64,000 bases of DNA from Swingsia samuiensis (GTDB lineage Bacteria > Pseudomonadota > Alphaproteobacteria > Acetobacterales > Acetobacteraceae), in NCBI RefSeq assembly GCF_006542355.1, contig NZ_CP038141.1:1057501-1121500 (forward strand), in the 5' to 3' direction. Below, piece by piece: positions 6,639 to 40,317 of the stretch. The notes under the pieces were generated by a model. The model made no database searches and was not told the origin of the DNA. It worked only from the letters and a program-made list of their open reading frames with translations. The number at the start of each line of letters is the position of its first letter. Position 1 is the stretch's first letter. The translations under genes and the position numbers were made by a program.

Positions 6639-6689
6639 TGTTTCAGCCTGTTTCTCCGTGCACTATTTGCCTGAAAGCCGCCTAACTCC

Positions 6690-9600: not shown

Positions 9601-9881
9601 AGGAAGTCGCGTTTTACGATGCGCTCTCACGCAATGAGAGTGCGAAAGAGGCGATGGAAGACCCCGCTTTGCGTACGCTTGCCGGTGCGCTTGTCGTCAC
9701 GATCCGCAATAATGCCACGGTGGACTGGACCATCATGGCGCAGGCCCGCGCTAAAATGCGGAAAGAGGTCAAGCGCTTGCTCCGCAAGCACGGATACCCG
9801 CCTGATTTCTCAGAAGAGGCCATCCGCTATATTCTCAAACAGGCTGAAGAGTTCGCTCCCTCATGGGCTGCGAAGGCTTGA
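6690..9881 (+). CDS. hsdR: Type I restriction-modification system, endonuclease/translocase subunit HsdR
   Basis: The 1063-residue motor and nuclease subunit translocates and cuts unmodified DNA. The N-terminal PD-(D/E)xK nuclease core is visible as PDIVLFINGMPLGVVELKSP (about residues 143-162). The superfamily 2 helicase motor follows: Walker A TQGSGKS (about 304-310), DEAH box (about 410-413) and motif III FTGTP (about 450). Helicase C-terminal features include LTGFDVPSMHTMYVDKPM and QAIARVNR. The C-terminal helical domain that docks to HsdM/HsdS fills the remainder. Length is typical. There is no clear terminator directly after it; the attachment-site-like repeat follows 64 nt downstream. 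Confidence 0.95.
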   Translation: MSFLSENDIENWACEILCETGYALADGSDISPGGAHPERDSLADVVLEGRLKAAIARLNPHLSESEQDEGLRAVLREDTPDHVEENRRLHGYLIDGVPVDVVREDGTQSGDRVRLLDFDDPWSNDFLAVRQFVVEKPDVNRRPDIVLFINGMPLGVVELKSPSSEQATLESAWNQFQTYRQYIPSLFRFNEALVIADGTQARVGSLTADYDRFMPWRTVDGEQVIAKNHEEMETVLRGVFAPGWFLPLLRDFVLFTEKDGCPVKILAGYHQFHAARRAVTQTVRATGGLTGEAGDKKVGVIWHTQGSGKSLLMTFYAGVIARHPEMGNPTIVVLTDRNDLDDQLFATFSGAQALLRQKPEQAEDRAQLKSLLRRVSGGVIFTTLQKFQPEEGATELPLLTDRRNVVVMADEAHRSQYGLKAKADNKTGAVSYGFAKHLRDALPNASFIGFTGTPVETVNSNTRAIFGDYIDVYDIAQAVEDGATVPIYYESRLARIQLDEDIAGELDDELAEIVDGLSENEEHKLSQKYSRVEALVGAEPRLRSVAADIVSHFEARLTALDGKGMIVCMSRAICVDLYNEIIRLRPEWGGTEDHDGVIKVVMTGSSSDPQEWLPHIGKKPKDRRELLAKRMKNNADPLKLVIVRDMWLTGFDVPSMHTMYVDKPMRGHGLMQAIARVNRVFKGKPGGLVVDYIGLAQNLQKALGQYSAGDRDQVGIDEDEAIRMMLERYEIVEAMFNPGQPGGFDYRPALAEGATPQRKLQAMAGALDHVLGQQQQDMVKAKSDEERRAAERRFPEAVKGLSVAYALASASDQAQLLRDAVGFFEAVRAALMKKVADVKGGRSVQDRELAVKQLISRAVISTDIIDIMEAAGIGRPDISILSDAFLHEVREMPQRNLAIEALKKLLEGQIRTRGASNMTEAERFSERLEKAVARYHANALTSAEMLEQLIAMAKEMAEARDRGEELGLSPEEVAFYDALSRNESAKEAMEDPALRTLAGALVVTIRNNATVDWTIMAQARAKMRKEVKRLLRKHGYPPDFSEEAIRYILKQAEEFAPSWAAKA

Positions 9882-14948: not shown

Positions 14949-15082
14949 CGTAAAAGTAAGCTTTTGGTAATTTGATATTGAGTTGTTTTATGTTTTTTAA
15001 TGGTAAGAAGGCCGCATCAAGTTAGGAAATATGACCCAAAAGCTTTAATGACAACGTGGAATAATGATTGTATATTTGTTCA

Positions 15083-16501
15083 ATGGATGATTTAATTAAT
15101 TATAAACAAACTCCTAAAGCTGTTGCACAAAATAAGGGGGAGTGGCCCTCCCCCAAGTATAAATATAGTATCGTGACGACGGCTCGTTGGGAAACGGCTT
15201 ATATTAAAGAGTGGATAGCTTATCATTTATCTATAGGCTTTGAGCATTTTTATATTTATTGCAATGATGATGATCCTAGCGAATTATATAGAGAACTTTC
15301 TCCGTTAATAATTGAAAAAAATTCAAAAATTACCTTTTTGCATTATGGCATTAAAGGCGCTCAATACCAAATGTTTTTGCATTATTTGTATAATTACTCT
15401 CATGAGACGAAGTGGTATATATTTTTAGACGTAGATGAGTTTATTTGCTTAAAAGGTGTGAATAATATTCGAAAATTTGTTGAACACCATGTCAAAAAAT
15501 ATAATGATTTTGACGCGTTGTATTTTAATTGGTCATTATATGGCACGAGTGGGTTTAAAAAACGTCCCAAAGGAGATGTTCTTAATAATTACACTCATCG
15601 AGAGGAAGGGCTGTCTCCACTCACGAAAATTCTGACAAAAGCAAGAGCATTCTCCTATCGTGAGTTTTTCTTAAAGCCTCATGAGGCTATTCATCATAAT
15701 ATAATGAATGTTTCTCCTGATATGCGTGGTATTAATGTATTGGGTGCAGATATGAGAAATTATTATGATGATTTCCCCAATAGAATATGGGCATATTTGA
15801 AAGATGGTGATAATATGCAGCAGATTTTAGATGTGGGCTATATTGCTCATTTTAATGTAAAGTCAGAGCAAGATTTTGAATTGCGATATAATCGAGGGGT
15901 TGCAGGGAATTTCATTCAGCAAAAGCAATGGATCTCTATGAACCAGTTAGAAAGAAACATTTTTTTGACGTTAACCAACAAAGTAGAAGATCGATATCTT
16001 TCTGATTATTGGACGGCCCTCTCAAATAGTCACAAAAAATGTGTATTCCCTTTACCTAAATGGCCATTAATTTCTGATTATGGTTCAGTTACACAATCCT
16101 CAACGGTTTTTCCTATATCTGTAGAAGAAGATGCAGAGCAGGTTTTTTCAGGAAATATTGGTAATTATCCGGCTAACCATACGAAGCAGGAAAATGATCC
16201 TTGGTGGCAGGTGGATTTAGAAAACCGTCATATAATTCATCAGGTTCGCGTTTTTAATCGGCTTGATGATGTTGTAGAGCGGATTGCTAATCTTGCGTTC
16301 TTCTCTTCAGATGATGGTGAAACATGGACTGAGTTTTATAGTAAACGAGATGGTATTCCTTTTGGCGGCGCAGACGGAACGCCTCTTATTTGGACAAGTG
16401 ACGAAGGAATACCTTTGCGGTTTCTTAAAATTGTAGTTCTTGGGAATGATACATATCTTCATTTCACTCAAATACAGATCTACGGGAATAGAGTGGCGTA
16501 A
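15083..16501 (+). CDS. Glycosyltransferase (GT92/GT2-like) with C-terminal discoidin-like domain
   Basis: The first part reads YSIVTTARWETAYIKEWIAY, then HLSIGFEHFYIYCNDDDPSE and FLDVDEF (D116, D118, E119). This is the pattern of the bacterial GT92/Glyco_tranf_2_4 group, in which the DXD binds nucleotide sugar and metal. From about residue 335 to the end is a discoidin-like domain (NDPWWQVDLENRHIIHQVRV, then SSDDGETWTEFY, and a final FTQIQIYGNRVA). The start is uncertain. ATG 15083 is given, but an in-frame TTG at 15068 is better placed behind GTGGA. Very AT-rich. It closes the glycan cluster; the 107 nt that follow hold no gene. Confidence 0.75.
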   Translation: MDDLINYKQTPKAVAQNKGEWPSPKYKYSIVTTARWETAYIKEWIAYHLSIGFEHFYIYCNDDDPSELYRELSPLIIEKNSKITFLHYGIKGAQYQMFLHYLYNYSHETKWYIFLDVDEFICLKGVNNIRKFVEHHVKKYNDFDALYFNWSLYGTSGFKKRPKGDVLNNYTHREEGLSPLTKILTKARAFSYREFFLKPHEAIHHNIMNVSPDMRGINVLGADMRNYYDDFPNRIWAYLKDGDNMQQILDVGYIAHFNVKSEQDFELRYNRGVAGNFIQQKQWISMNQLERNIFLTLTNKVEDRYLSDYWTALSNSHKKCVFPLPKWPLISDYGSVTQSSTVFPISVEEDAEQVFSGNIGNYPANHTKQENDPWWQVDLENRHIIHQVRVFNRLDDVVERIANLAFFSSDDGETWTEFYSKRDGIPFGGADGTPLIWTSDEGIPLRFLKIVVLGNDTYLHFTQIQIYGNRVA

Positions 16502-16608
16502 TGAATGCTTTTATACTCGGTGTTTTTCCTTATTGAATAAAATATTCAATATTTTCTGTTGCTTATTTCCATTCTTGTAGAGTAACTCTCTCCCAATTAT
16601 TGATTTGG

Positions 16609-19600
16609 ATGAAAGTTATTCGAAAGATGAAAAGCCGCTATTTTGCCTTGACTGCTTTTACGGCGTTATGTGCATTTGCACCTTTTTATTCTGCCGTGGC
16701 ACAACGGCAAATACCGGCTTCTTCTGAACAAACAACATTAGGCTTTGTTCGTCTGACCCTTAATACAGGGGGAGAACGACCTGAAGCATGCCTAAGGTTT
16801 GACCAAACGCTCGATAGTACAGCCGTCACACATTACGCAGACCACGTGACGGTGACACCACAAGTGCATCCAGCCCTTCGAGTGGAAGATCATGATTTAT
16901 GTATCGGTGGCCTTGCATGGGGAACACGCTATCGGATAGCGGTTTCTCCCGGAATGGCGGATGCTCACGGAAATCGTCTTTCCGCACCCGTTTCAGTCTC
17001 CGTGATGACAGGAGATCGCAAAGCACAAATCGCGATGGGAGGAGCTGGTTATATCCTTCCCAAGCGGACAGCCTCTGGCATTGATATTCAGACGGTTAAC
17101 ATGGATCGTGTGCGTGTTGCCGTTTGGCGTATGTCACAACCTTCCATAGAGCATTTAATAAAGAATGATGATATTGATCTGGCGGCCTCTTCAGTAACAC
17201 GCTCTCAACTTGACGAGTTACGACAAACACAACTGACAAAAGTTTGGTCCGGTACGCTGGATGTGGATAATGTAAAGAACATAATGTCCACAAAGTCTTT
17301 TCCTCTGGCAGGTGTCGTTCAAGGGCAAAAGGCGGGTATTTATCTTGTAACAGCTGAAGATGCTGCAACTCCAAAAGATAGAAGCTTTATGGCGGACGCG
17401 TCGTCTGAAGCACTATCTGAAGCGGATATTGAAAAGGAGATTGCCGCACATTGGGTTAAAGTATCCGATATGGGGCTCTCGGCTATACGCGGAAGTGATG
17501 GTTTGCACGTTTTTGCACGTTCGCTTGCCACAGCAGAGCCGATGGTGGGAATAAAGATTTCCCTGACGTCGCGAGGATCGGATGAGCTTGGAACGGTCAC
17601 AACAGATGATGCAGGACAGGCGGTTTTTGCATCGGGCCTCATGAATGGGAAAGAAGCTGAAACCCCCAGTTTAATTCTTGCGACTGCTCCTGATGGAGAT
17701 ACTGCAACGATACGCGTGGATGGATCATGGTTTGATTTATCGGATCGTGGAGTCGATGGTCACGAAACTTCCAAGGCTCAGCAAGCGGTTTTGGTAACAG
17801 ATCGTGGCATATATCGCCCAGGAGAGACCGTAAATATCACCGCGTTGTTGCGGGATCATAAGGGTGAGGCTATTTCCTCACAACCGCTCATTCTTGCTCT
17901 TTCTCGACCTGATGGAGTTGAGGTGCGTCGGGTGGTGCTCCCCGCGCAAGCCAGTGGAGGCTTTGTAACGACAGAGCAACTGACCAGCAGTGCTCCTCAC
18001 GGTCGGTGGACGATCAGTGCTTATTCTGATCCGACCTTGCCTCCGATTGGAACGACAGAGATTTCAGTTCAAGATTTTGTTCCTCAAACGCTTGGGGTAA
18101 AATTAACGTCTACAGCAAAGGCTTTTCCTACGTCCGGAGCATTGGATGTTGTATTGGATGGGCAATATCTTTATGGCGCACCTGCTGCCGGATTACACGG
18201 AGATGGCCGGGTAAAAATCTCTCTTGATGATGCGCCAATTGCTGGGTTTGATGATTATAGTTTTGGTTTGAATACAGAACATGTATCGGGAGACGAGCAA
18301 AAGCTTTCCGTTCCAGATGCCGATGCACAAGGACGTTCGGTAATCGCCGTTCATCCTGACATCCCTCAGGGTTTGAGCCTCCCTTTGAAGGCGACGATTA
18401 CGGCATCTATGCAAGACCCGGCTGGCCGAAGTGTTGCTCAAACCCTCACCATGCCGTTAACGCGTACACGTCCGCTGATCGGCCTTAAGGTTAAAGACAG
18501 CGGCGGAGGGGATGATCAGCAAGCTGTATCTGTTCCAATGGATGTTGTTACATTTGGACCAGATAATAAGCCGCAAGCATTGCATAATTTAGCTTGGTCA
18601 ATTGTACGCGAAAATGAAGTGTATGATTGGATCCATGATGATGGTCGGTGGTCTTTTCGCGAGCATGTGATTGATGAACCGGTTCAGCATGGTGCAACCG
18701 ATACAGGAAGTGATGGTCGTGCTCATTTTGCTCCTGCGTTGGTCCCCGCACGGTATCGTTTGATTGTATCAGACCCTGCAACAGGAAGTGCATCTTCTCG
18801 TGAGTTTTATGTTGGTTGGTGGTCTGCGGGGGATGATAAACCCAATGCTCCAGACCGCTTGGTGGTCACACCGAAAGACAAAACCCTTGCGGCAGATGGA
18901 ACAACGACCGTTCATATCGATGCGCCTTTTGCAGGACAGGCGCAGATCGTTATGGCGACGGATCGTGTAGAGTCGGTTCGTAACATTAATGTGCCCAAAG
19001 GTGGGGTCGATGTGCCGGTGACCGCCAGTGCAGACTGGGCCGGTGGAGCGTATATGTTGGTGACGCTGTATCGGTCGCTTCAAACGCCGGCACGTGCGCA
19101 CGAGCCAACACGAGCGGTTGGTGTGGCCTATATTGGGTTGGATCAATCCGCTCATCGCTTAGGGGTATCAATTGATGCGCCAAAAGAAAGTCGTCCCCAA
19201 GGGAAGATGGTTGTTCCTGTCACGATTACGGGAGGGAAGTCTGGCCCAGTCCATGTAACGTTAGCGGCGGTTGATAAAGGTATACTCGGGCTGACGGCTT
19301 GGAAACAACCTGATGTTTTTGATCTGATTTATGGACGGCGTGAGCTGGGAGTGGATGTAACGGATACATACGCTCACCTTCTCTCTCCGACTGGAACGGC
19401 AGGAACTATTCATGAAGGGGGTGATGTTGGCAGTGGAGAAGAGGGGGATACCGCCTCACTTGCCGTGACCTCAACACACATTGTGTCATTATTCTCCGGC
19501 GATGTGACACCTGATGCGAATGGCCATGCTCAAGTTGCGCTTAATGTACCAGACTTTGAAGGAACATTGGGTTTGATGGGCACCGCCTGGAGGGATGATG

Positions 19601-21648
19601 CTGTTGGAACAGGGCAGGCAGAAACGATTGTTCGTGATCCTGTCTTTGCTGATCTGACCTTGCCGCGTTTTATGGCCCCTGGAGATACGGCAACCAGTCT
19701 TGTTTCTTTGGTAAATACAGATGGAGAAGCAGGACATTACACGGTGAGTTTGACCGTAGATGGGCCGCTTACGCTTCCACAAACACATGATTTTGCATCT
19801 GATTTGGCTAAAGGGGAGCGCAAAAGCTTCTCTACAGTGTTAACAGCTCATGAGGCTGGGATTGCTCATCTTCATCTGGCTTTACACGATAAGAATGGAA
19901 AAACAGTTCTAACCCGTTCGTGGGATATTCAGATACGTTCTGGCCATATGCCATTAACGACTTCTGTTATGCATAAGCAGGCATCTGGTGAGAGCTATAC
20001 CGTTGACCCAGCACTTTTAGATTCTTTTGAACCCGGTGCTGCGTTAACGTTGAGTTACTCGGGTGTTGGTGGAATTGATACCGTTGGGTTGCTCCAATCT
20101 TTAGAAAGTTTCTCTTGGGGCTCTTCAGAAAGCCTTGCTTCGGCAGCTCGGCCTTTACTTTTGTTCAAAGGGCATAAGCAACTCGGTTTAGAGACCATTC
20201 CCGGTGGGCCAGATAAACGTGTTCAAGATGCGATTGCGGCCTTGTTGGACCGTGAGGATGAAGGCGGCCGAATTGGGGATTGGCGTTTAAATGACGGTGG
20301 CACATTACCGTGGACACAAATCTATCTGGTTGATTTTCTTTCACGCGCTAAGGCTGCGGGGTATGCGGTGCCTGATGCAGCACTTGGCCATGCGTTAGAC
20401 TGGTTGGAAACGGAGCAGGGCCAAGGGAATGGATCGGACGAAAGCTCCAGCTCTGGTGATATAGCTGTAACGCCTGAAAGCAAGGCATACGCACTTTATG
20501 TGTTAGCGCGTGCAGGGCGTCTGAATACGCCTGCCTTGCGGGCGTTATACGATAACGTCAATACCGAAGGCGGTAGTGGTACCCGTACGCTCTTCTGGGG
20601 AGATGGGCCTGCCAGTGATAAAACGCGAGCAGATGCGTTAGCGCTTGGTCATCTGGCGGGAGGCTTGGCTCTGGCTGGCCAACATAAACAAAGCGACGAT
20701 ACGTTTGGCATGGCGGTCGATGCTCTTGGCCCTACGCGTGTTGGTCGGCCTGGATTGCTTGACTTTGAGTATTGGACGTATGTGCGTGATCTGGCAGGCC
20801 TTACCCCTCTCGCAGCTGAATCTGGCAATCACGGATTAGCACAGAAGTTGGCGGATCGTTTTTCGGGTTTGACTCTTGGCCCTGCAGAATTGTCGGATGA
20901 GAGCAAGATGGATCTGCTTGAAACGGTGGCGGCTATGAACCAGAATGTTTCAGGTGTAGGGATTTCTGTGAATGGGCATGCACAGCCCCAGCCTCTGCAA
21001 TTGCCTTTCTCTGTAACGCCTAAAACATCAGAGCTGAAAGGCTTTACGGTTTCCAATTCGGGCTCGATCCCTTTGTGGCTTGCTGTGACGGTTACAGGCT
21101 CTCCTAAAGATGTTTCCAAGCCAATCACACAAGGGTTTAACATGAATGTATCCACACGTGGGATGCATGGTGAACCCGTGGATGTCACAAAATTACGCCA
21201 GAATGATCGTTTTATCGTTGTGATTGAAGGGAATGTAACAGATCACGATCAGCACCATTGTGTGCTTGTGGATATGTTACCTGCTGGATGGGAAATTGAA
21301 GGGCTTGCTCAAGGAAAGAAACTTGAAGATGATCCTGAAAATCAGATTGGTGCAAAAGACGACACAGACACCAAGAATGAAGGGTATGACTTCTTGGGGG
21401 TAACGAGCGATACCCGCTTTGCTTCGATACAGGATGATCGTTTTGTTGCCGCGTTTGATTTATCTCCTAATGGGGATGCAAACAGCAACATGGAAGATAT
21501 TGGAAGGTCGAGCTTCCGTGTCGCTTATATTGTTCGGGCTGTTACGCCGGGCACGTTCTTGCGCCCAGAAACGGTCGTGAAAGATCAGTACCGCCCAACC
21601 ATGACTGCGCGTTCAGCGGCAGGTGTTACGACGATTACCGCACGATGA
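16609..21648 (+). CDS. Bacterial alpha-2-macroglobulin family protein without thioester
   Basis: The protein is about 1679 residues. A Sec signal peptide (RYFALTAFTALCAFAPFYSA then VAQ) is followed by macroglobulin domains. The MG2-like segment is TDRGIYRPGETVNITALLRD at about residue 395. The A2M signature region is PDFEGTLGLMGTAWRDDA near 980. The alpha-helical thioester domain follows, and a C-terminal domain ends the protein. Where thioester family members have YPYGCLEQ, this one reads FSWGSSESL (about residue 1170), so the reactive Cys-Gln pair is missing, as in the YfaS type. There is no convincing lipobox, so it is probably soluble in the periplasm, trapping proteases or stabilising the envelope. 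It overlaps pbpC (ATGA), the classic partner. The start is uncertain: TTG 16600, ATG 16609 or ATG 16627. Confidence 0.9.
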   Translation: MKVIRKMKSRYFALTAFTALCAFAPFYSAVAQRQIPASSEQTTLGFVRLTLNTGGERPEACLRFDQTLDSTAVTHYADHVTVTPQVHPALRVEDHDLCIGGLAWGTRYRIAVSPGMADAHGNRLSAPVSVSVMTGDRKAQIAMGGAGYILPKRTASGIDIQTVNMDRVRVAVWRMSQPSIEHLIKNDDIDLAASSVTRSQLDELRQTQLTKVWSGTLDVDNVKNIMSTKSFPLAGVVQGQKAGIYLVTAEDAATPKDRSFMADASSEALSEADIEKEIAAHWVKVSDMGLSAIRGSDGLHVFARSLATAEPMVGIKISLTSRGSDELGTVTTDDAGQAVFASGLMNGKEAETPSLILATAPDGDTATIRVDGSWFDLSDRGVDGHETSKAQQAVLVTDRGIYRPGETVNITALLRDHKGEAISSQPLILALSRPDGVEVRRVVLPAQASGGFVTTEQLTSSAPHGRWTISAYSDPTLPPIGTTEISVQDFVPQTLGVKLTSTAKAFPTSGALDVVLDGQYLYGAPAAGLHGDGRVKISLDDAPIAGFDDYSFGLNTEHVSGDEQKLSVPDADAQGRSVIAVHPDIPQGLSLPLKATITASMQDPAGRSVAQTLTMPLTRTRPLIGLKVKDSGGGDDQQAVSVPMDVVTFGPDNKPQALHNLAWSIVRENEVYDWIHDDGRWSFREHVIDEPVQHGATDTGSDGRAHFAPALVPARYRLIVSDPATGSASSREFYVGWWSAGDDKPNAPDRLVVTPKDKTLAADGTTTVHIDAPFAGQAQIVMATDRVESVRNINVPKGGVDVPVTASADWAGGAYMLVTLYRSLQTPARAHEPTRAVGVAYIGLDQSAHRLGVSIDAPKESRPQGKMVVPVTITGGKSGPVHVTLAAVDKGILGLTAWKQPDVFDLIYGRRELGVDVTDTYAHLLSPTGTAGTIHEGGDVGSGEEGDTASLAVTSTHIVSLFSGDVTPDANGHAQVALNVPDFEGTLGLMGTAWRDDAVGTGQAETIVRDPVFADLTLPRFMAPGDTATSLVSLVNTDGEAGHYTVSLTVDGPLTLPQTHDFASDLAKGERKSFSTVLTAHEAGIAHLHLALHDKNGKTVLTRSWDIQIRSGHMPLTTSVMHKQASGESYTVDPALLDSFEPGAALTLSYSGVGGIDTVGLLQSLESFSWGSSESLASAARPLLLFKGHKQLGLETIPGGPDKRVQDAIAALLDREDEGGRIGDWRLNDGGTLPWTQIYLVDFLSRAKAAGYAVPDAALGHALDWLETEQGQGNGSDESSSSGDIAVTPESKAYALYVLARAGRLNTPALRALYDNVNTEGGSGTRTLFWGDGPASDKTRADALALGHLAGGLALAGQHKQSDDTFGMAVDALGPTRVGRPGLLDFEYWTYVRDLAGLTPLAAESGNHGLAQKLADRFSGLTLGPAELSDESKMDLLETVAAMNQNVSGVGISVNGHAQPQPLQLPFSVTPKTSELKGFTVSNSGSIPLWLAVTVTGSPKDVSKPITQGFNMNVSTRGMHGEPVDVTKLRQNDRFIVVIEGNVTDHDQHHCVLVDMLPAGWEIEGLAQGKKLEDDPENQIGAKDDTDTKNEGYDFLGVTSDTRFASIQDDRFVAAFDLSPNGDANSNMEDIGRSSFRVAYIVRAVTPGTFLRPETVVKDQYRPTMTARSAAGVTTITAR

Positions 21649-23645
21649 TCCTGCATATCCGGGGGAAGAGGCGTGTATTCTTTGGAATACGCGCTTTTGT
21701 CCTTGGGGGGGTATGTATAGGAGGGATAGCTTTTGTAGCGGATCGTGTATTCCCTCCTGATTTAAGCCGTGCGCAGGCTTATGCACTGATCCTTCATGAT
21801 CAGGATGGTCATTCTTTGGATGCGCGGGTCAGTGCGGATGGGTATTGGCGTTTACCCATAAAGCCAATGGATATTGATCCGGTATATCAGAAACTACTTT
21901 TAAAAACGGAAGACCGTCGTTTCTGGTGGCATCCAGGGGTCGATCCATTTGCAGTAATGCGCGCCGCAGGCCAATTGGTGATTCGAGGGCATATTGTCTC
22001 GGGTGGGTCTACTCTGGCTATGCAAACAGCACGGCTTTTAACACCACATCGGCATAGTTGGCGTGGCAAGATTGAGGATGCTTTGCGGGCGATTCAGCTT
22101 GTCTGGCGGTATGGTCATAGAGGTGTTTTGAACTTGTATGTCACACTTGCACCAGAAGGAGGGTCAATAGAAGGCGTTCGTATGGGCTCATTACATTGGT
22201 TTGGGCACGAACCGAAATATCTTTCACCTTCTGAGGCAGCATTACTGGTTGCTCTTCCGCGGCGTCCAACTGCTTTACGCCCTGATCGTCACCCCAAGGC
22301 AGCTTTGAGCGCAATGAAGCCGATTATGGCGCATATTCATATGCTGCCCCCTGAATCACTTCCTTTACGATTAGATAAAGGACGTACATGTCATGATGCT
22401 CCCTCATTACTTGCGCATGAATGGCACATGAAGGTGCGTGGGGTTGTGCGGACAACCCTTGATCGGGAGCAGCAGGAAACAGTGCTGCGCATCTTACACA
22501 TGAGTAACCCACCGCGGCGTGGTGGGTGGGCTGCATTGGTTGTTCGTCGTAATGGAACGGTAGCGGCATGGGTCGGTAATGCGGGGAATGAGTGCCCTGG
22601 CTGTGCTGCTGATATGGTACTGGCTTGGCGTTCTCCTGGCTCTACGCTGAAGCCTTTTATTTATGGATTAGCCTTTCAGCAGGGGCTTCTTTCTTCTGAG
22701 ACGTTAATGCAGGATAAAGTTGCTCGTTTTTCAAGTTATACACCCCGGAATTATGATCGTGTTTTCCATGGGGCGACAACGGTACGGACAGCGTTACAAC
22801 AATCCTATAATTTACCGGCTGTGCGCGCTTTGGATCTTATTGGAGCACGTTATTTCACCCAGACTTTATTGGATAGCGGAATAGATATTCGTCTGCCGCG
22901 TGGTGCATCGCCCAATCTCGCCATTGCGCTGGGCGGGGCCGGGGTCAGAATGTTAGATCTAGGGCAGTTATATAATGCTTTGGCTCGTGATGGCTTGAGT
23001 GCTCCTTTAAAAGTGGTTCGGTCGGAAGAGCAGAAGGAACAATCGGTTCGCTTGTTCAGTCGAGAGGTGGCGCAGCAGATTCTTTCTATTTTACGTGGGA
23101 CACCGCTACCGACAGGGATGTTGAATAGTCCCGATCGAAGCTTGGCGTTTAAAACTGGCACATCATACGGTCAACGTGATGCGTGGGCCGCTGGAGTGCG
23201 GCATGGATGGACGGTTGTTGTATGGGGGGGGCGGCCAGATGGTGCGCCAAGCCCAGGTATTACGGGGCTGAGAGTAGCGGCTCCGGTAATGGCACAAATT
23301 ATGGATACTTTGCCAAATGGCCCCCATACACTTGAGCCATTTACGCGGGCTTCCGGGCGGATTGCACCTTCGCTTGCTGCGTTACCAGAAAAATCAGGCC
23401 CACATCTTGTTTCCCCGCCAGATGGAGCGACAGTTGAAAGCTTTTCTGATGATGGCACGGCTACACCGATTGGGTTTGAAGCAACGGGTGGGACTGCCCC
23501 TTACCGATGGATTGTGAATGGGCATGTGTTGAATATACCCACAGGGGGAACCCCTTCTTGGGTACCAGATGGCCCCGGCTTTGTGCATATAACGGTTATA
23601 GACGCAGAGGGACGTAGTGCATCCGCAACTGTTCGGGTGCGGTAG
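21645..23645 (+). CDS. pbpC: Penicillin-binding protein 1C
   Basis: The 666-residue bifunctional peptidoglycan synthase has one N-terminal membrane anchor (FGIRAFVLGGVCIGGIAFVA). The GT51 glycosyltransferase domain shows KTEDRRFWWHPGVDPFA and GGSTLAMQTARLL. The transpeptidase domain shows the three active-site motifs: SPGSTLKPF (STLK), QSYNLPA (SYN) and FKTGTSYG (KTG). The C-terminal 90 residues match the PBP1C-specific C-terminal beta domain (PPDGATVESFSDDG then WIVNGHVL). The ATG overlaps the macroglobulin stop, so the two are translationally coupled. This matches the known yfhM-pbpC pairing, thought to link envelope protection with cell-wall repair. Confidence 0.94.
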   Translation: MILHIRGKRRVFFGIRAFVLGGVCIGGIAFVADRVFPPDLSRAQAYALILHDQDGHSLDARVSADGYWRLPIKPMDIDPVYQKLLLKTEDRRFWWHPGVDPFAVMRAAGQLVIRGHIVSGGSTLAMQTARLLTPHRHSWRGKIEDALRAIQLVWRYGHRGVLNLYVTLAPEGGSIEGVRMGSLHWFGHEPKYLSPSEAALLVALPRRPTALRPDRHPKAALSAMKPIMAHIHMLPPESLPLRLDKGRTCHDAPSLLAHEWHMKVRGVVRTTLDREQQETVLRILHMSNPPRRGGWAALVVRRNGTVAAWVGNAGNECPGCAADMVLAWRSPGSTLKPFIYGLAFQQGLLSSETLMQDKVARFSSYTPRNYDRVFHGATTVRTALQQSYNLPAVRALDLIGARYFTQTLLDSGIDIRLPRGASPNLAIALGGAGVRMLDLGQLYNALARDGLSAPLKVVRSEEQKEQSVRLFSREVAQQILSILRGTPLPTGMLNSPDRSLAFKTGTSYGQRDAWAAGVRHGWTVVVWGGRPDGAPSPGITGLRVAAPVMAQIMDTLPNGPHTLEPFTRASGRIAPSLAALPEKSGPHLVSPPDGATVESFSDDGTATPIGFEATGGTAPYRWIVNGHVLNIPTGGTPSWVPDGPGFVHITVIDAEGRSASATVRVR

Positions 23646-32984: not shown

Positions 32985-33692
32985 ATGATAGAAGTTAGAC
33001 CTTTTTCTGGTCTTGGTTCAGCAGACCATGGTTGGTTACAAGCAAAGCACCATTTTTCCTTTGCTAATTATTTTGACCCTAATAGAATGCATTGGGGCGA
33101 TTTAAGAGTATGGAATGATGATACCATTGCGCCGGGCACGGGTTTTCCCACACACCCTCATGCGGATATGGAAATCATAACCTACGTACGTGAAGGGGCC
33201 ATTACCCATCAGGACAACCTTGGGAATAAAGGACGTACTGTTGCAGGCGATGTTCAGGTAATGTCTGCGGGAACAGGGGTTCGTCACAGCGAGTACAATC
33301 TCGAAGACGAAACAACGCGTATTTTCCAGATCTGGATTATTCCAAGTCAGCAAGGTCATAAAGCATCTTGGGGGACGCGCCCGTTTCCAAAAACAGACCG
33401 CGAAGGTGCTTTTACGATTTTGGCATCAGGATATGCAAATGATGGGGATGCCCTTCAGATTCATGCTAATAGTCGGGTTTTGGCTGCCAATTTAAAGGCC
33501 GGTCAAACGGCTGAGTATCATTTAGGCGAAGACCGCTTAGCATATCTTGTCCCTGCAAAAGGGAAAGTGGAAATCCAAGGAAAGACGGTAAATGAACGTG
33601 ATGGGGCCGCCATTTCTAAGACAGATCTTCTCATTGTTAAGGCTTTAGAAGATTCTGAAGTTGTGATGGTTGATACGTCGCCCGTTCAATAA
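32985..33692 (+). CDS. Pirin family protein (YhhW-like bicupin)
   Basis: The 235-residue bicupin has its metal site in the N-terminal cupin: THPHADMEIITYVREGAITH (His-x-His and Glu region), and later GTGVRHSEYN with His and Glu. YhhW-like pirins can act as quercetin 2,3-dioxygenases, but many have no known substrate, so the activity here is uncertain. The start ATG follows AAAGGAG. The divergent LysR gene probably regulates it. A clear hairpin (33700-33727) follows the stop. Confidence 0.92.
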   Translation: MIEVRPFSGLGSADHGWLQAKHHFSFANYFDPNRMHWGDLRVWNDDTIAPGTGFPTHPHADMEIITYVREGAITHQDNLGNKGRTVAGDVQVMSAGTGVRHSEYNLEDETTRIFQIWIIPSQQGHKASWGTRPFPKTDREGAFTILASGYANDGDALQIHANSRVLAANLKAGQTAEYHLGEDRLAYLVPAKGKVEIQGKTVNERDGAAISKTDLLIVKALEDSEVVMVDTSPVQ

Positions 33693-33878: not shown

Positions 33879-34841
33879 ATGGCTGATTATGATTATGATT
33901 ATAACGACGATGATTATGACGATGCTAATGATGAGGGCTCTAACTTGAGTTTTAATCCATTTGACCCAGCGAGTGCTAAAAATTTTGGAACTGCTCTTGC
34001 CAGTTCTATTCAAAAATCAATCGCAGCTGCTCAGAAGGCTTCGAACGCTCAGGGTGGTGGGAACAATGTACAGATCTCCACTGGTTCTACAAAAATAAAC
34101 GCGACTATGCTTGGCGTTTCTGTCTCAGTTTCTGGAACAGCTAAAGACCCTGTACCGACTGTGTCAGCAAAAGGTGACACTCTTACTGTTAATGGACAAA
34201 AAGTTGATCTTCATTTGCAGAAAGATCAGCACATCACTTCCATTAATTATAATAATGGTAAGTTGTTAGTGAACGGAACTGAAGTGAAGTTCTCTCCATC
34301 GAATAAGTCTTTTGGTGGCATCACAATTGATAACGGTCATGGTACTATCTCGCATATTGGTCCTGATGGTATAAGTAATGTGAATCTCTTTGGCGGCGGT
34401 AATACGGGCATATCCACCGGGTCTGAGGGCATCCAAATTGGTAATGATTGTGGCAATTCAACAATTAATTTTGGAGTTATAAACGGCCAGAACAGCAATA
34501 ACAGCAATAACACAATTTTTAGTCTGTGGAATGTTGGTTCCGTGGATAAAGTGTCTAATAATAATTCGATCATCGGGTCTGAGAACATCGAATTTGGTAA
34601 TGATGGTGGCAATTCAACAATTAATTTTGGAGTTATAAACGGCCAGAACAGTAATAACAGCAATAACACAATTTTTAGTCTGTGGAATGTTGGCTCCACG
34701 GATAAAGTGTCTAATAATAATTCGACTCAAAAACACTCTTCGACAGACAATGCTAATAAATCTGCTGTAGTTGGAACAAGCCCACAGCATAAAATTGCTG
34801 TAGGTAATTCACACGATAACTACGTTACATTCACTTCGTAA
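33879..34841 (+). CDS. Unrecognised Asn/Gly-rich repeat protein with Asp/Tyr-rich N-terminus (copy A)
   Basis: The 320-residue protein has no signal peptide or membrane segment. The N-terminus is MADYDYDYNDDDYDDANDEG. A Gly/Ser/Thr-rich part holds a short beta-like module (ITSINYNNGKLLVNGTEVKF). Two 50-residue tandem repeats (34419-34568 and 34575-34724) contain GNSTINFGVINGQNSNNSNN and TIFSLWNVGS. The C-terminus is GTSPQHKIAVGNSHDNYVTF plus TS. The downstream gene shares the N-terminal character, the VNG.EV module, one NQNSNNS..SIFS unit and the tail, so they are paralogues with separate terminators. Composition suggests beta-rich or disordered fibres and an extracellular or assembly role, but nothing proves it. 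The ATG follows GAAAGGG. Confidence 0.8.
   Translation: MADYDYDYNDDDYDDANDEGSNLSFNPFDPASAKNFGTALASSIQKSIAAAQKASNAQGGGNNVQISTGSTKINATMLGVSVSVSGTAKDPVPTVSAKGDTLTVNGQKVDLHLQKDQHITSINYNNGKLLVNGTEVKFSPSNKSFGGITIDNGHGTISHIGPDGISNVNLFGGGNTGISTGSEGIQIGNDCGNSTINFGVINGQNSNNSNNTIFSLWNVGSVDKVSNNNSIIGSENIEFGNDGGNSTINFGVINGQNSNNSNNTIFSLWNVGSTDKVSNNNSTQKHSSTDNANKSAVVGTSPQHKIAVGNSHDNYVTFTS
34419..34724 (+). repeat. Two 150-bp tandem repeats (156-bp period) inside copy A
   Basis: The units 34419-34568 and 34575-34724 are nearly identical in DNA, separated by six bases (atcatc). Differences are mostly single bases, so the duplication is recent or maintained by conversion. The unit encodes 50 residues; copy number could vary between strains. 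Confidence 0.85.
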
Positions 34842-34852
34842 GTTAAAGAGTA

Positions 34853-34887
34853 AGTAAGGAGGGGTTAGAGCTTCCTCCTTACTTTTG
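34853..34887 (+). terminator. Rho-independent terminator after copy A
   Basis: The 10-bp perfect stem agtaaggagg / cctccttact has an 11-nt loop and is followed by TTTTG. It ends transcription of the first repeat-protein gene, so copy B probably has its own promoter in the AT-rich 90 nt that follow. Confidence 0.8.
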
Positions 34888-34976
34888 TAAAAAATTAAAA
34901 TTCATTATATTTATTTAAATTAATATTTAATATAGAATTTCTCCCTCGTGATTTAATCCTAAAAAAGGAACATTAT

Positions 34977-35672
34977 ATGCTTCGTTACGAAGACTATGAC
35001 TACGATTATGACTCTGAAGATGGTTATGATAACGATCGCGCTGCTGAAATCGCTCAGAAAGAGGCAGAGAGAGAGCAGGCAAGAGCCGCACGGTTGATGG
35101 AAGCTGAACAGCGTCGTGTTGAAAAAGAGCAGGCAAGAGCCGCGCGGTTAAAAGAAAAAGAACAGCAACGTGCTGAGAGAGAAAAAGCAAAAGCAGCTCA
35201 ACGCGCAGAAAGAGAACGTCAAGCTAAAGAAAACCACAATACATCAATCAGCATCAATTCAGATGGAAATACATCCGGTAATGGCGTTATGATCATTAAC
35301 GGAGTGAGAATTGAAATTCCACCACAAGGGATTTCATCGATGAAAACTGAAAACGGAAAGATCTATGTAAACGGCAAAGAGGTTGGTTCTTTGCCAGCCG
35401 GTCAAGATCCTGGTATCAGCATTGGCGGTAATGAATCTGGATCAGGGTTCCATTTTATTATTGGAAACAACCAAAATTCCAATAATAGTTATACTTCCAT
35501 CTTCAGTGATATACATGATGTGAATTTTACGAGCGATCTGCATCTTAATAATGTGCATCAAAGCTACTCAGAGACAGAGACTATTAATAGATCTGCCGCA
35601 GCAGGAACAAGCCCACAGCATAAAATCGCTGTAGGTAATCAACATGATAACTACGTTACATTCTCTTCTTAA
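34977..35672 (+). CDS. Unrecognised protein with charged helix and shared C-terminal tail (copy B)
   Basis: The 231-residue protein has no signal peptide. The N-terminus is MLRYEDYDYDYDSEDGYDND. Residues about 22-85 form a strongly charged helix of Ala/Glu/Arg/Lys with an 18-residue tandem repeat (EQARAARLMEAEQRRVEK). A beta-like module follows (GVMIINGVRIEIPPQGISSM then NGKIYVNGKEVGSLP), with Gly/Asn-rich sequence, and the tail GTSPQHKIAVGNQHDNYVTF plus SS. Tail, VNGKEV module and N-terminus match copy A. The last 69 bases of both genes are almost identical. The ATG follows AAAAAGGAAC. The charged rod could reach across the periplasm or bind nucleic acid; that is speculation. Confidence 0.8.
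   Translation: MLRYEDYDYDYDSEDGYDNDRAAEIAQKEAEREQARAARLMEAEQRRVEKEQARAARLKEKEQQRAEREKAKAAQRAERERQAKENHNTSISINSDGNTSGNGVMIINGVRIEIPPQGISSMKTENGKIYVNGKEVGSLPAGQDPGISIGGNESGSGFHFIIGNNQNSNNSYTSIFSDIHDVNFTSDLHLNNVHQSYSETETINRSAAAGTSPQHKIAVGNQHDNYVTFSS
35073..35180 (+). repeat. 54-bp tandem repeat encoding an 18-residue helical unit
   Basis: The stretch gagcaggcaagagccgc begins at 35073 and again at 35127, 54 bases later. The encoded units EQARAARLMEAEQRRVEK and EQARAARLKEKEQQRAER are alike and fit a continuous charged helix. Confidence 0.7.
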
Positions 35673-35687
35673 TTAAGATGAGATCGG

Positions 35688-35719
35688 TAAGGGGGCCTAT
35701 TATGGCCCCCTTATTTTTT
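35688..35719 (+). terminator. Rho-independent terminator after copy B
   Basis: The 10-bp stem taagggggcc / ggccccctta has a 6-nt loop and is followed by TTTTTTA. It lies between two convergent genes, just at the end of the OpgH-like gene. Confidence 0.88.
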
Positions 35720-38006
35720 AAGATTGTTTATAGTTATAAAGTCTCAAAATTTCGTCTAACGCTTTTTTCTCAGATAAAGCGGTCATGAACTCATCAATTG
35801 TTAGTTTCTTATTGAGAGTCATTTTTTCCGAAACGTTAGAATAAAAACGAGAAATATGACGCGCCCGTGCTCTCTGCGCAACGTAGAAGTCTGGACTATT
35901 TAACGCGTATTGGATGCAATGCTCCAGATTTTCTGGGTCAGGGATTGTTGATCTAACTTTTTCATCCCATTCCAGCATTTGAGTAATTTCAAGAGGTACT
36001 TCGTGCTCTTCAGGGATCATAAACCATTTAGCTTTAAGAAGAGCAGGGAATGAAAAGCTGGTTAAGCGAGCAATAAACACACTGAAGATAAGCCCTGATA
36101 AAATCGGGAAGAACCAGAAAAGTATACTATTAGGAAGGGCAAAATGTCCGTTCATAAGGTGGAACATTAAGATCGCCTGAGTAGGGATCATGTATAGTTT
36201 GTAGATGAGATACCCTGTGATCAGGATCCCTAAGCTGGAAGTCCATCCAAAATGTTTTAAGCACATTTTCCATGGTAAGGCATCATCATCCCGTTGTTGA
36301 TTGCCCCATGAAATGCTGCGTCTTTTGATCCAAAGCCATGTAAAACGTGTCAGGAATGCCATCATGATCGGGGCAAAAAAGAACGAAAACAGTGTTTCGG
36401 CTAGGGTTGACGCAATCATTTTAATCTTACCACCAAACCGTTGAGATTTAGCATGTGGCAAGTTCTGAAGGATGGCAAAAACGCGGGGGGCAAAAAGGAA
36501 AACAATTGTTGATGCGAGCATCATGATGGAAGGCAGGGATAAAGACCCCATCATATCAAGCGAGAATTGGAATGTTTGAATGTAAAAGGTCATGTACCAT
36601 GCTGAGACAATCAAGAAGATGGCCCATAAAGGCGCTGATACATAGGCCATGACACCGGTGATGAAGGTCTCTCGATGAACGGGACGAATACCTTCAATAA
36701 AAAGGAGACGGATGTGCTGTAAGTTTCCTTGCATCCAGCGGCGTTCCCGAATGAGAAAGCTTAGAAGGTTGGAGGGTATTTCCTCATAACTTCCTTCAAG
36801 TTCTGGTAAAAGCCACACTTCGTAGCCTGCACGAGCCATAAAAGCGGCTTCAATAATATCGTGGCTAAGGGGCTTTCCTCCCCAAGGGCTTGTACCTGAT
36901 AATTCTGGAAGTAGGCAGTGGTCCACAAAAGGCTGTATACGAATGAGGGCGTTATGACCGATGTATGAGGCATGGCCCATATTCATGGCTTGCATACTGT
37001 AGGAGAAAGCCGTGCCATAAAGGCGCCCGGCAAATTGTTGCATTCTCCCAAAAAGGCTTTCACGTAATACAGGCGTTGGGCTGGTTTGTAGAATGCCGAG
37101 GCGGTGATTGCCTTCCATCATGCGAAAGAGTTTTTGAATGGTTGCGCCATTCATGAGGCTATCGGCATCCATGACGAGCATATATTTGAAGCGACTACCC
37201 CAACGTCTGCAAAAATCTGTAACGTTTCCTAATTTGGCGTGATCGTTTGATTTGCGCCACCGGTAATGAATGGAAAAGTTAGGGCAAGCTTTTCGAACTT
37301 GAATTAATGCGGCGAGTTCAGCAATACGATAATTGGCTTGCCGGCTGTCGGACAGAAAGAAAAATTCGTAGTTTTTGATATGCTCAGGCGCATGACGCTC
37401 AAGAGATTTGGCTACAGAAATTATGCCAGCTGATACGCGAGCGGGGTCTTCATGATAAACAGGAAAAAGAACGGCTACCTTGGAATCAGGAAGAGGGTCT
37501 CGCGCAGAGTGACTAGGGTGCCACGGATTGGCATTAGGCCCTCGGAGGGCATGCCAGGTTCCCAAGATTAGTTTTGAAAAGGTTGATATGATAAAAAATA
37601 TCATAACGGTGTAGAGTGCCGTATAAATAGCACTTAACGTAAGAGAAATATGCTCCGAAGAGAGAGTGGATGCAGAAATCCAGCTTAAAATAGCTGTTAA
37701 GGAGAGGGTAACGCATAAAGAGATATGTCTGCGTTTCTCAATAACGTCTGTCCAGCTTGGGGGGCTTCCAACAGGAAGCCCTTGATCGCGCATAGCGTGG
37801 AAGCGCCGGAAAAGAGCAGCCTTCCAGCAGAGATCGAGTTGAGGAGCGCCGATGGAGGTGCGCTTGGCAGATGGTAGCTCCTCATCTTGGGTGTGATGAT
37901 CCATCCAGTGGAAAAAATCTTCCCAAGAATCTAGATTTCTATTCTGCTCATGCGCTTCGGCTTCAGATAAACCGGCTGCTTTTAGATATGCGCGAAAATC
38001 AGTCAT
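35718..38006 (-). CDS. OpgH/MdoH-type membrane glucosyltransferase
   Basis: The 762-residue processive GT2 enzyme uses UDP-glucose to make beta-glucan across the inner membrane. The catalytic loop shows VAVLFPVYHEDP, the metal-binding DADS (in MLVMDADSLMNG), SHDIIEAAFMARAGYEVWLL and the RERRWMQGNLQH motif. Six or more membrane helices flank it, for example MAYVSAPLWAIFLIVSAWYM. OpgH normally sits next to opgG; no opgG was found here. Instead it is the third gene after a KpsE-like and a Wza-like gene on the same strand, so its product may be exported rather than stay periplasmic. That is inference from context. Confidence 0.88.
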   Translation of the reverse strand: MTDFRAYLKAAGLSEAEAHEQNRNLDSWEDFFHWMDHHTQDEELPSAKRTSIGAPQLDLCWKAALFRRFHAMRDQGLPVGSPPSWTDVIEKRRHISLCVTLSLTAILSWISASTLSSEHISLTLSAIYTALYTVMIFFIISTFSKLILGTWHALRGPNANPWHPSHSARDPLPDSKVAVLFPVYHEDPARVSAGIISVAKSLERHAPEHIKNYEFFFLSDSRQANYRIAELAALIQVRKACPNFSIHYRWRKSNDHAKLGNVTDFCRRWGSRFKYMLVMDADSLMNGATIQKLFRMMEGNHRLGILQTSPTPVLRESLFGRMQQFAGRLYGTAFSYSMQAMNMGHASYIGHNALIRIQPFVDHCLLPELSGTSPWGGKPLSHDIIEAAFMARAGYEVWLLPELEGSYEEIPSNLLSFLIRERRWMQGNLQHIRLLFIEGIRPVHRETFITGVMAYVSAPLWAIFLIVSAWYMTFYIQTFQFSLDMMGSLSLPSIMMLASTIVFLFAPRVFAILQNLPHAKSQRFGGKIKMIASTLAETLFSFFFAPIMMAFLTRFTWLWIKRRSISWGNQQRDDDALPWKMCLKHFGWTSSLGILITGYLIYKLYMIPTQAILMFHLMNGHFALPNSILFWFFPILSGLIFSVFIARLTSFSFPALLKAKWFMIPEEHEVPLEITQMLEWDEKVRSTIPDPENLEHCIQYALNSPDFYVAQRARARHISRFYSNVSEKMTLNKKLTIDEFMTALSEKKALDEILRLYNYKQS

Positions 38007-38025
38007 ATCAGAATATCATCCCCAT

Positions 38026-39153
38026 TTAGCGTAAGATGGCTGCTGGGAGTGCCATTTGGAATATTGTGTTAATGACGCGCGCAATAGGAACCATGGGTGA
38101 TTCAGCGACATAGACGACGTCTTTATTTTTGATCGGGAAGTCTTGTGCGGCGATAAGACCATTCCCGTCTTTCCATGAGAAAACATAGAGAGACATTTGA
38201 GAGTTAGGCTCTCTTCTAAAGACAAAGATACGCGTACTATTTGCAGAATTGGGGTTTAAGCCTTGTGCTTGCGCGAGTGTGCCTGACAAGGAAGGAGATT
38301 CACCAAAACCATACAGTCCGTTGTGGTTGATCCCGCCACCCATCACAACGACTTGCACAGGGGATTCTTTCTTGATGATAACTTTGTCTGCGGGTTGAAG
38401 AGCGATGTCTTTTTCCAGAGCGACGGAAATGGGGAGTTGTGCCTCTTGCTCATGCCGAACGACAGATACACGAATGGCATTTGTGTTTTTATCGAGATTA
38501 CTATTCTCGCTTAACGAAGATGTTCCATTGCCGAGTGCTAATGTAATGGCTTGAGAGAGGGACATGCCCCCTGGAGACCATGAGAGAATTTTGGGTTGCC
38601 CGATTGAGCCTGTTACAGTGATTCCGGTTTGGGTGGAGGCAACATCTACGGTTATGTCTGGATCATTGACGATATTGCGTCTCACATAAGAGGACACAAT
38701 AGATCTACGGGCTTGGTCAGGTGTTTTGCCTGCTACGCGAATACTACCGACATAAGGGAGTGTAATATTTCCGGCGGTATTAACCTGGAAAGAGCCGAGC
38801 GCCGTTTTTTGTGGGGCTTGAGACGGGGAGGTTGCAAGAGAACTCTCGTCAGCACCTTGGAAGCTCCATAACGAGATATTTAAAGTATCGCCCGGATGAA
38901 TGGATGTTGTTCTGTAGGGCGAACTATTATTCAGGAAGTAAAGTGCTTCTGTAAGATCTTTCTCTTTTTTCTGGTTCTCTGCCACATTCATTGCGTTCGC
39001 AATTTCAGGCGTTACGTTCACAATATGAACATTGCGTGTTTTTTCAACAGGCTCTGCTAAGGGGCCAGCATTGGGCAGAGAGCATGATGTAAGAGGAAGG
39101 AAAACGAGTCCGCTAAGGAGGGCGACTGAGAGAGGGAGCTGCTTAAGTTTCAT
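38026..39153 (-). CDS. Wza/KpsD-like polysaccharide export lipoprotein
   Basis: The roughly 375-residue outer-membrane lipoprotein has a signal peptide ending in lipobox LTSC (FLPLTSCSLPNAG). The polysaccharide export (Poly_export) domain shows IHPGDTLNISLWSF, NTAGNITLPYVGSIRVAGKT and a PDITVDVAS segment. SLBB-like repeats follow (VTGSIGQPKILSWSPGG, then VVVMGGGINHNGLYGFGE). Such proteins form the outer-membrane channel for capsule or exopolysaccharide. The start was placed at ATG 39153, the second in-frame ATG, because the signal peptide begins there; ATG 39174 is possible. It lies between the KpsE-like gene (upstream) and the OpgH-like gene (downstream). Confidence 0.88.
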   Translation of the reverse strand: MKLKQLPLSVALLSGLVFLPLTSCSLPNAGPLAEPVEKTRNVHIVNVTPEIANAMNVAENQKKEKDLTEALYFLNNSSPYRTTSIHPGDTLNISLWSFQGADESSLATSPSQAPQKTALGSFQVNTAGNITLPYVGSIRVAGKTPDQARRSIVSSYVRRNIVNDPDITVDVASTQTGITVTGSIGQPKILSWSPGGMSLSQAITLALGNGTSSLSENSNLDKNTNAIRVSVVRHEQEAQLPISVALEKDIALQPADKVIIKKESPVQVVVMGGGINHNGLYGFGESPSLSGTLAQAQGLNPNSANSTRIFVFRREPNSQMSLYVFSWKDGNGLIAAQDFPIKNKDVVYVAESPMVPIARVINTIFQMALPAAILR

Positions 39154-39180
39154 CGTAAAGGTCTCGCTGATCATGAAGGT

Positions 39181-40317
39181 TTAGGAAATGACAAAGCGGA
39201 TGAGGAGCGATAGGGCCAACACAATGAGGATGGCTTTTAAGCGATTAGGCCCGGTAGGAGAGTGTGGGGTTGAGGGTTGGCTGATGGTTTGGAGGTAATA
39301 TTGATTTTGCTTGCTCTTAATAACGGCTTCCTGAAGGGCTGTTTCGGCCGTTTCGAGTAGTTTTGCATCGGTATTTTGTTTTAAAATCAGGCTTTCATAG
39401 TTTGTAGCCTGAGAAAAAATAGATTTTGATACTTCTCGTAAATGAGAAGAGTTCTTTTTCAGAATATCTATTCTTGCTTTGAGGGAAGCAACTTTAGGGT
39501 TGTTACTTTCATACAGGTGGCCGATTTGAAAATCGCTATTGAGATCCATTTGCTTTGAATCGAGAGCTAGAGCCTCTTCTGATAAAGCGGCATAGTCTTT
39601 TTCAGGCGCTAAAAGGTTTGTATGTGTGCGCCATGCAGCAATATTGGCTGCATCTAAAGCAACAGCTTTGCGCATATCGGCAACTTCTGTGCGAGCTGAG
39701 GCAACAAAATCTGCACCTTCCAGATCATTTAAATGATTGAGATGATTGGAAACGTCCTTGAGTAACTCAGACGAAATTTTTTCAGATAAGACTGGTGAGA
39801 AAGAATTAACGGAAATTTTTGTAATACCTGTCTGCTCATCGATAGAGACATTCGTATTGTTTTTGTAATAATTCCAGAGTGAAACATCACTTGTACTAAA
39901 GAGACTTTTGAAGCCACCAAAGCGTGAAATGAAGTCTGCGTTAGAATAAACATCATATAAATTAAATTTGGTATTTATAGAGAGAAACTGATCCCACGAT
40001 AGGGCTCTATTTTTAACAATCCATGCCCCAGAGGTATCATCATTATTATCTCCAGAAAGAATGTTTTTTAGGTTTGCTGAAGATTTTTGGGGGCTTTTTA
40101 CTAAAATAATCGATTCAGATTCAAATGTTGGAGTAGCGATAAGCCCGAAATAGGAGATGGCTAAAAGGTTAGGAATGAGCAGTGTGTATAACGTTTTTTT
40201 AGACAAGTTAAACTTGTTGGCTTTTTGAGATTGGAATTTGTTTTTTATGTCAACAGGAATCTCTTTGTTACTGCGTTTTATGAATCGACTGAGCTTTGCG
40301 TCGAATGTTGTTGGCAT
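39181..40317 (-). CDS. KpsE/Wzz-like polysaccharide export inner-membrane protein
   Basis: The 378-residue protein has two membrane segments. The first is near residue 45 (LYTLLIPNLLAISYFGLIA), the second at the C-terminus (LKAILIVLALSLLIRFVIS). A long periplasmic helical region lies between them (about 200-340). The stretch ATPTFESESIILVKSPQKSS matches the Wzz/BexC/KpsE group, which controls chain length and links to the Wza-type channel. No KpsM/KpsT ABC transporter is nearby, which is unusual. It is first in an operon with the Wza-like lipoprotein and the OpgH-type enzyme. The ATG follows GGAGGTATC. Confidence 0.85.
   Translation of the reverse strand: MPTTFDAKLSRFIKRSNKEIPVDIKNKFQSQKANKFNLSKKTLYTLLIPNLLAISYFGLIATPTFESESIILVKSPQKSSANLKNILSGDNNDDTSGAWIVKNRALSWDQFLSINTKFNLYDVYSNADFISRFGGFKSLFSTSDVSLWNYYKNNTNVSIDEQTGITKISVNSFSPVLSEKISSELLKDVSNHLNHLNDLEGADFVASARTEVADMRKAVALDAANIAAWRTHTNLLAPEKDYAALSEEALALDSKQMDLNSDFQIGHLYESNNPKVASLKARIDILKKNSSHLREVSKSIFSQATNYESLILKQNTDAKLLETAETALQEAVIKSKQNQYYLQTISQPSTPHSPTGPNRLKAILIVLALSLLIRFVIS

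Follow-up and report, generated by a model that had tools for sequence, protein, structure and literature searches.

A seemingly real and duplicated orphan gene pair with a common C-terminal tail in Swingsia samuiensis

Substrates of type I secretion carry an uncleaved C-terminal signal, and their genes commonly, if not universally, lie beside those of the ABC/HlyD exporter. Together with TcaA, a protein that has a membrane span, and with autotransporter-like beta-repeat proteins, they are the described systems closest to the two proteins considered here. These are encoded by two open reading frames, A and B, in a 64,000-nucleotide stretch of the Swingsia samuiensis genome (the window, to which positions refer unless a contig is named). 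Both frames were found where the initial annotation had placed them (33879-35672), on the same strand and separated by a gap of 135 nt, and they look like a real and duplicated orphan gene pair with the following features:

33879..34841, + strand: gene A, 320 aa, Asn/Ser/Gly-rich orphan protein (open reading frame)
33879..33938, + strand: A, acidic Asp/Tyr-rich N-terminus, residues 1-20 (sequence)
33966..34043, + strand: A, predicted helix, residues 30-55, low confidence (AlphaFold2 single-sequence model)
34161..34292, + strand: A, VNG beta module, about residues 95-138 (alignment; model blocks at pLDDT 66-73)
34416..34727, + strand: A, two tandem copies of a 52-residue Asn-rich unit, period 156 nt (repeat analysis)
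34485..34523, + strand: A, GQNSNNSNNTIFS, first copy (sequence)
34641..34679, + strand: A, GQNSNNSNNTIFS, second copy (sequence)
34773..34838, + strand: A, 22-residue C-terminal tail GTSPQHKIAVGNSHDNYVTFTS (sequence)
34852..34884, + strand: terminator-like hairpin 3' of A (folding and hairpin scan)
34977..35672, + strand: gene B, 231 aa, predicted helical rod and A-like C-terminal region (open reading frame)
34977..35036, + strand: B, acidic Asp/Tyr-rich N-terminus, residues 1-20 (sequence)
35022..35240, + strand: B, predicted long charged helix, residues 16-88 (AlphaFold2 single-sequence model)
35283..35390, + strand: B, VNG beta module, about residues 103-138 (alignment; model blocks at pLDDT 55-76)
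35469..35507, + strand: B, NQNSNNSYTSIFS, single copy (sequence)
35604..35669, + strand: B, 22-residue C-terminal tail GTSPQHKIAVGNQHDNYVTFSS (sequence)
35686..35715, + strand: terminator-like hairpin 3' of B (folding; absent from the hairpin scan)

An RBS-like AAAGGG stands 5' of A and an RBS-like AAAAGGA 5' of B, both read from the sequence. The hairpin 3' of A folds at -17.5 kcal/mol over 34840-34895 (z -3.45) and that 3' of B at -23.5 kcal/mol over 35670-35725 (z -3.88), with 0/200 shuffles as stable in either case. The motifs follow one another in the same order in both products, namely acidic Asp/Tyr N-terminus, helix, VNG beta module, QNSNNS...IFS unit and tail. The elements first noticed by eye upstream of the tail are borne out: DYDYD runs occur at both N-termini, the VNG.EV module follows the pattern VNG...NGK..VNG.EV in A and B (18 invariant of 76 alignment columns), and NQNSNNS/GQNSNNS...IFS units are present in A/B. 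The tail, described initially as identical over 23 residues, is indeed common to both proteins, but it is near-identical (20/22) and 22 residues long.

The calculated pI is 4.85 for A and 5.33 for B, and the 551 residues of the two proteins include one Cys, a scarcity that export would allow but that falls short of significance (P = 0.11, with the Cys rate taken from 30 window genes). The GC and GC3 of A (0.391 and 0.340) and of B (0.418 and 0.328) are low, yet within the values shown by the 32 genes listed for the window, of which 29 have a GC3 of 0.24-0.46. Elsewhere in the window, the methylase and restriction genes of a type I restriction-modification locus (3030-9881) have a GC of about 0.555 and a GC3 of 0.615 and 0.624, against that range of 0.24-0.46, which suggests recent transfer.

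We think that A and B are tandem paralogues, because their similarity exceeds that of shuffled sequences even without the tail: the local BLOSUM62 score is 228 for the entire proteins (shuffle mean 42.6, sd 7.1) and 117 once the last 23 residues of each are removed (shuffle mean 39.3, sd 6.2), and 0/1000 shuffles reach the score in both comparisons. The N-terminus (residues 1-60), the module and the pre-tail segment, tested separately, likewise gave 0/1000 each, the N-terminal figure being the weakest since shuffling preserves composition but not low-complexity order. The best tail-free local alignment pairs A 175-296 with B 88-207, setting the B module against the first repeat of A; as it is not colinear, the case for colinearity is made by motif order and by the separate segment tests. 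In the (G/N)QNSNNS segment, chosen by eye, A and B use different synonymous codons at 5/6 conserved residues whichever A copy is taken, as an old divergence under protein selection would give.

Within A, the two copies of the Asn-rich unit are 94% identical in DNA, with six non-synonymous and two synonymous differences among the 51 codons compared, and this 52-residue internal duplication is recent. The Asn-rich repeats that had been proposed for A thus exist, although as two copies of a unit of 52 rather than 50 residues. The rod of B contains an 18-residue tandem duplication (35067-35174; 54 nt, 78%), so that the spacer changes by duplication in both genes, by 52 aa in A and by 18 aa in B.

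That the two proteins belong to no recognised family holds after the searches made here, in which no profile, sequence or fold match was credible or above a curated cut-off. No Pfam or NCBIfam family reached its cut-off for A or B, and neither protein had a credible match in PHROGs, PADLOC or PDB sequences. Weak matches in Pfam (TcaA_3rd_4th at 0.0019 and DUF3472 at 0.36 for A, Laminin_G_3 at 0.019 for B) and in PHROGs (best 0.32 for A and 0.0098 for B) were rejected as helix or hairpin composition. Composition was also the reading given to NCBIfam RipA for B (0.0036, 16.4 bits against a cut-off of 625; A had no match in NCBIfam), to the best PDB sequence matches (0.93 for A, 0.12 for B and 0.14 for the module profile) and to a PADLOC match of A at 0.7, B having none there. 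The tail profile matched no PDB sequence at 10, and Foldseek returned 0 matches to the B model at E 0.001 (best E 0.77 in the PDB and 0.13 in BFVD).

The genomes searched comprised one per species, the family (396) and phylum (397) sets being even, partly overlapping samples of larger groups. Whole A had no match at E 0.01 in 99 other genomes (25 of the same genus), and those 25 yielded neither A nor B. In the same 99 genomes whole B had one match (G095, E 0.0067, residues 17-88), rejected as covering the charged helix only, as was a match to a Desulfobacterales locus among the genome contigs (L007, 43%, residues 36-85). A match to B in its own genome, at C1:877253-877753 (E 0.001, residues 34-200), lies in a porin-like frame of 582 aa with an N-terminal coiled coil; it was set aside too, at 23% identity to B and with the VNG, QNSNNS and tail motifs unmatched. 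With the tail profile, the 396 other family genomes gave only a 37-aa frame in GC-rich DNA (G386, E 0.009, 21 positions), which was rejected, and the 397 other phylum genomes gave none at E 0.001. With the module profile, three matches at E 0.32-0.76 in the 25 other genus genomes were rejected, and the 396 other family genomes gave one weak match at E 0.01 or below (G304, E 0.0053). No relatives of A or B were found in viral contigs, plasmids or phages, and a literature search at listing level returned nothing apparent that bears on the pair. The tail and module profiles have two rows each and may overlook remote relatives; within the reach of these searches, the family appears restricted to one species. 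Within the genomes searched the tail is absent elsewhere, an absence that the initial annotation had named as half of a case against its reading.

No N-terminal signal is evident in either protein as judged by hydropathy and charge, which supports the earlier view that both lack a signal peptide: no hydrophobic segment was found (best 19-residue Kyte-Doolittle mean 0.82 in A and 0.74 in B), and the first 25 residues carry a net charge of -10 in A and -8 in B. Predicted as monomers by AlphaFold2 from single sequences (mean pLDDT 41.5 for A and 54.1 for B), the two models agree in layout, with an acidic N-terminus, a helix, a small beta module and a very-low-confidence C-terminal part. The charged helical rod that had been suggested for B corresponds to the long charged helix predicted at residues 16-88, with pLDDT 74-84 in blocks 21-70 and 68 and 48 at the helix end; in A, the ten-residue blocks of residues 21-60 are at 55, 64, 59 and 40. 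Block pLDDT in the C-terminal parts is 24-40 in A and 26-38 in B, and no structure is therefore claimed for them. N-glycosylation sequons number 14 in A against 10.1 by shuffling (191/2000 shuffles reach 14) and 6 in B against 2.7 (77/2000 reach 6), the excess in B being at most suggestive.

The explanation that we tentatively place first is that A and B are a structural pair without leader sequences, restricted to their lineage, and that the C-terminus they share is used in assembly or export. Common descent, signs of protein constraint, the recent duplication in A and separate transcription signals are supported by the sequences; as no credible homologue of the pair turned up in the searches, the mechanism is one that we infer. 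A and B would be leaderless, acidic, low-complexity structural proteins acting together, in which the middle part—the helical rod of B and the Asn-rich repeats of A—would be a tolerant spacer of a length varied by duplication, and the beta module, QNSNNS...IFS unit and tail would be the working end. Such a layout suits structural proteins that associate through a conserved end. This end might mediate co-assembly of A with B, or be recognised by an exporter of the kind guided by C-terminal signals, for example type I secretion; as no export signal is evident, the two options would be cytoplasmic assembly and export through a C-terminal signal. The tail is a possible sorting, secretion or assembly tag, as initially proposed. 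Against this explanation, two paralogues with a common tail need no tag. Proteins of the same genome that share the tail had been suggested as a check, and none besides A and B carries it. As other segments are also common to A and B, which makes them look like duplicates, the tail is weaker evidence for a tag than it would be on unrelated proteins.

In another account, possible though on the unlikely side, A and B are plain lineage-specific orphans: young, fast-evolving duplicates whose tails are identical through recent gene conversion and have little or no selected function. It agrees with the lack of credible relatives in the genomes searched, with AT-rich surroundings (GC 0.374 at 34000-34999) and with the codons of the tail, which are unusually alike. 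The tail DNA is identical at 63/69 nucleotides including the stop, and the same codon is used at 17/20 identical residues, where 8.1 are expected from window codon usage; the figures are 11/21 just before the tail (8.5 expected) and 6/18 in the module (7.1 expected). The same-codon share of the tail exceeds that of module and pre-tail segment together (17/20 vs 17/39; Fisher P = 0.0025, in a comparison chosen post hoc). With codon identity this high, part of the tail identity may come from recent homogenisation or from DNA/RNA constraint, and not only from protein selection. DNA identity, however, is 27/30 for both of the final 30-nt blocks, the stop codon included, and drops to 8/30 in the block directly after it, where a blind conversion tract need not end. 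The synonymous divergence in the QNSNNS unit and the RBS-like sequence 5' and hairpin 3' of each gene also speak against plain orphans.

The position of the pair is again what such orphans might show, since we infer that A and B sit where gene order has changed between relatives. The pirin and LysR genes, on the side of the pair away from the glucan operon, are adjacent in two genomes without A/B (G007 and G011). The distance between pabB and pirin is 8 kb in the S. samuiensis genome. Of the 13 other genomes in which pabB is matched strongly (E < 1e-150), nine have it 98-262 kb from the listed pirin and four have it on another contig. The pirin of the window (32985-33692) has a second copy in the genome at C1:2114041-2114736 (74% identity), and with two pirins in this genome the pirin listed elsewhere may match the other copy where LysR is not seen beside it.

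Less likely still is cytoplasmic co-assembly, in which a homotypic C-terminal contact and a helix or repeat spacer would give an internal filament or condensate with no export at all. The want of an evident export signal in A and B, the long predicted helix in B and the acidic Asp/Tyr-rich N-termini are all in its favour. The B helix itself argues the other way: by inspection it has no clear heptad pattern, and its i,i+4 charge pairs do not exceed those of shuffled sequences (net -3 against a shuffle mean of 0.3, P = 0.82), a negative result on which a single alpha helix was also rejected for the rod. Its i,i+3 pairs are 15 opposite vs 6 like, as a raw count without shuffle comparison.

A more specific picture—a species-specific fibre or matrix of two leaderless proteins, exported by way of a C-terminal tag unlike known C-terminal sorting signals—seems improbable. 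For the export option of the explanation placed first, a type I exporter is the candidate partner, and one HlyD of the genome, among ten matches, is above the NCBIfam type I cut-off (331.2 vs 208.65 bits); 13 of 14 control genomes had a HlyD match, and in one of the 14 it was over the cut-off. The HlyD above the cut-off is encoded at C1:1234922-1236193, about 142 kb from A/B. Its region (L090:6515-17386, C1 ~1232500-1243400) holds an ABC exporter with HlyD and, after them, a Sel1-repeat protein and glycosyltransferases; no obvious substrate gene was seen in 19 kb around ABC exporter and HlyD, and proteins of 299 aa and 141 aa near the exporter are possible substrates. Type I HlyD occurs in 26/26 genomes of the genus and A/B in 1/26. 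Since 25 of these genomes lack A/B, its substrates should include other proteins, and no observation connects A/B with it, so HlyD would not be a partner specific to the pair. In having no N-terminal signal or membrane span, as judged by hydropathy and charge, A and B resemble type I substrates; neither gene lies beside an ABC/HlyD exporter, and across the genus their occurrence does not follow that of the exporter.

It is very doubtful that A and B are surface or matrix partners of the adjacent glucan synthesis and export operon, a link that the initial annotation had itself called positional. Convergent genes for an MdoH-type synthase, a Wza-like polysaccharide export protein and a KpsE-like protein do adjoin the pair downstream. 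The same trio, however, is present in G021 (synthase 52% identity), in G008 (45-46%) and distantly in G001 (30-31%), no relatives of A or B were found in these genomes, and the surroundings of the trio differ in each (frames read by eye); the link is thus unsupported. The identity in G001 is near the level of genus-wide MdoH paralogues, so that G001 may hold a different set. In G021 the trio lies at one end of a 14 kb contig that also encodes proteins resembling transposases, integrases and ParA (named by eye), and in G008 it lies between other genes. Recurring as it does in different surroundings, the glucan set of the window (35718-40317; MdoH-type glucosyltransferase, Wza-like and KpsE-like) may be a mobile synthase-plus-export set.

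Among other features of the window, two proteins encoded near polysaccharide genes have a C-terminal F5/8 type C (discoidin) match: at 11386-12753 it is just below the cut-off (27.9 vs 28.2 bits), and at 15068-16501 it is fused to a family 2 glycosyltransferase. At 16600-23645 a bacterial alpha-2-macroglobulin adjoins a penicillin-binding protein with a BiPBP_C domain, a pairing that is already known.

Least probable of all is that the tail is conserved as DNA or RNA rather than as protein, by folding, in the mRNA, into a small hairpin (CCCACAGC...GCTGTAGG) that would act in regulation: the high codon identity of the tail and the prediction of this hairpin in both genes (in A at z -3.09, 1/200 shuffles as stable) would fit, but the hairpin is drawn from two sequences only and reaches just z -1.30 in B (22/200 shuffles as stable).

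A leaderless structural pair with a C-terminus used in assembly or export is the explanation we keep in first place, tentatively; a tail that proved to direct export or assembly would represent a new type of tag, short and transferable. A and B are in any case a well-delimited orphan pair, and modular orphan pairs are useful for studying the origin of new proteins.

Compared with known systems, A and B are like type I substrates in their lack of an evident leader, their acidity, their common C-terminus and their near absence of Cys, and the genome carries a type I HlyD. They differ in that the tail is without glycine-rich RTX repeats (as read from the sequence), that the genes are not beside the exporter, and that HlyD is conserved where A/B are absent. 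A likeness to autotransporter-like beta-repeat proteins comes from the weak module match in G304, which lies in a 2425-aa frame with Asn/Gly/Ser-rich repeats; the autotransporter label is a reading of part of this frame, A and B are without an evident signal peptide, and shared composition best accounts for the match. The TcaA third/fourth domain (PF22820) is matched in both A and B when the VNG module is searched alone, best in A (E 1.3e-4, 22.3 bits, positions 10-41 of 73), and in B only in that search. Against a cut-off of 27, whole A scores 18.5 bits and its module alone those 22.3, below membership; A covers 32/73 positions, under half of the domain, and unlike TcaA neither protein shows a membrane span. 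The likeness is best read as one of beta hairpins with NG turns.
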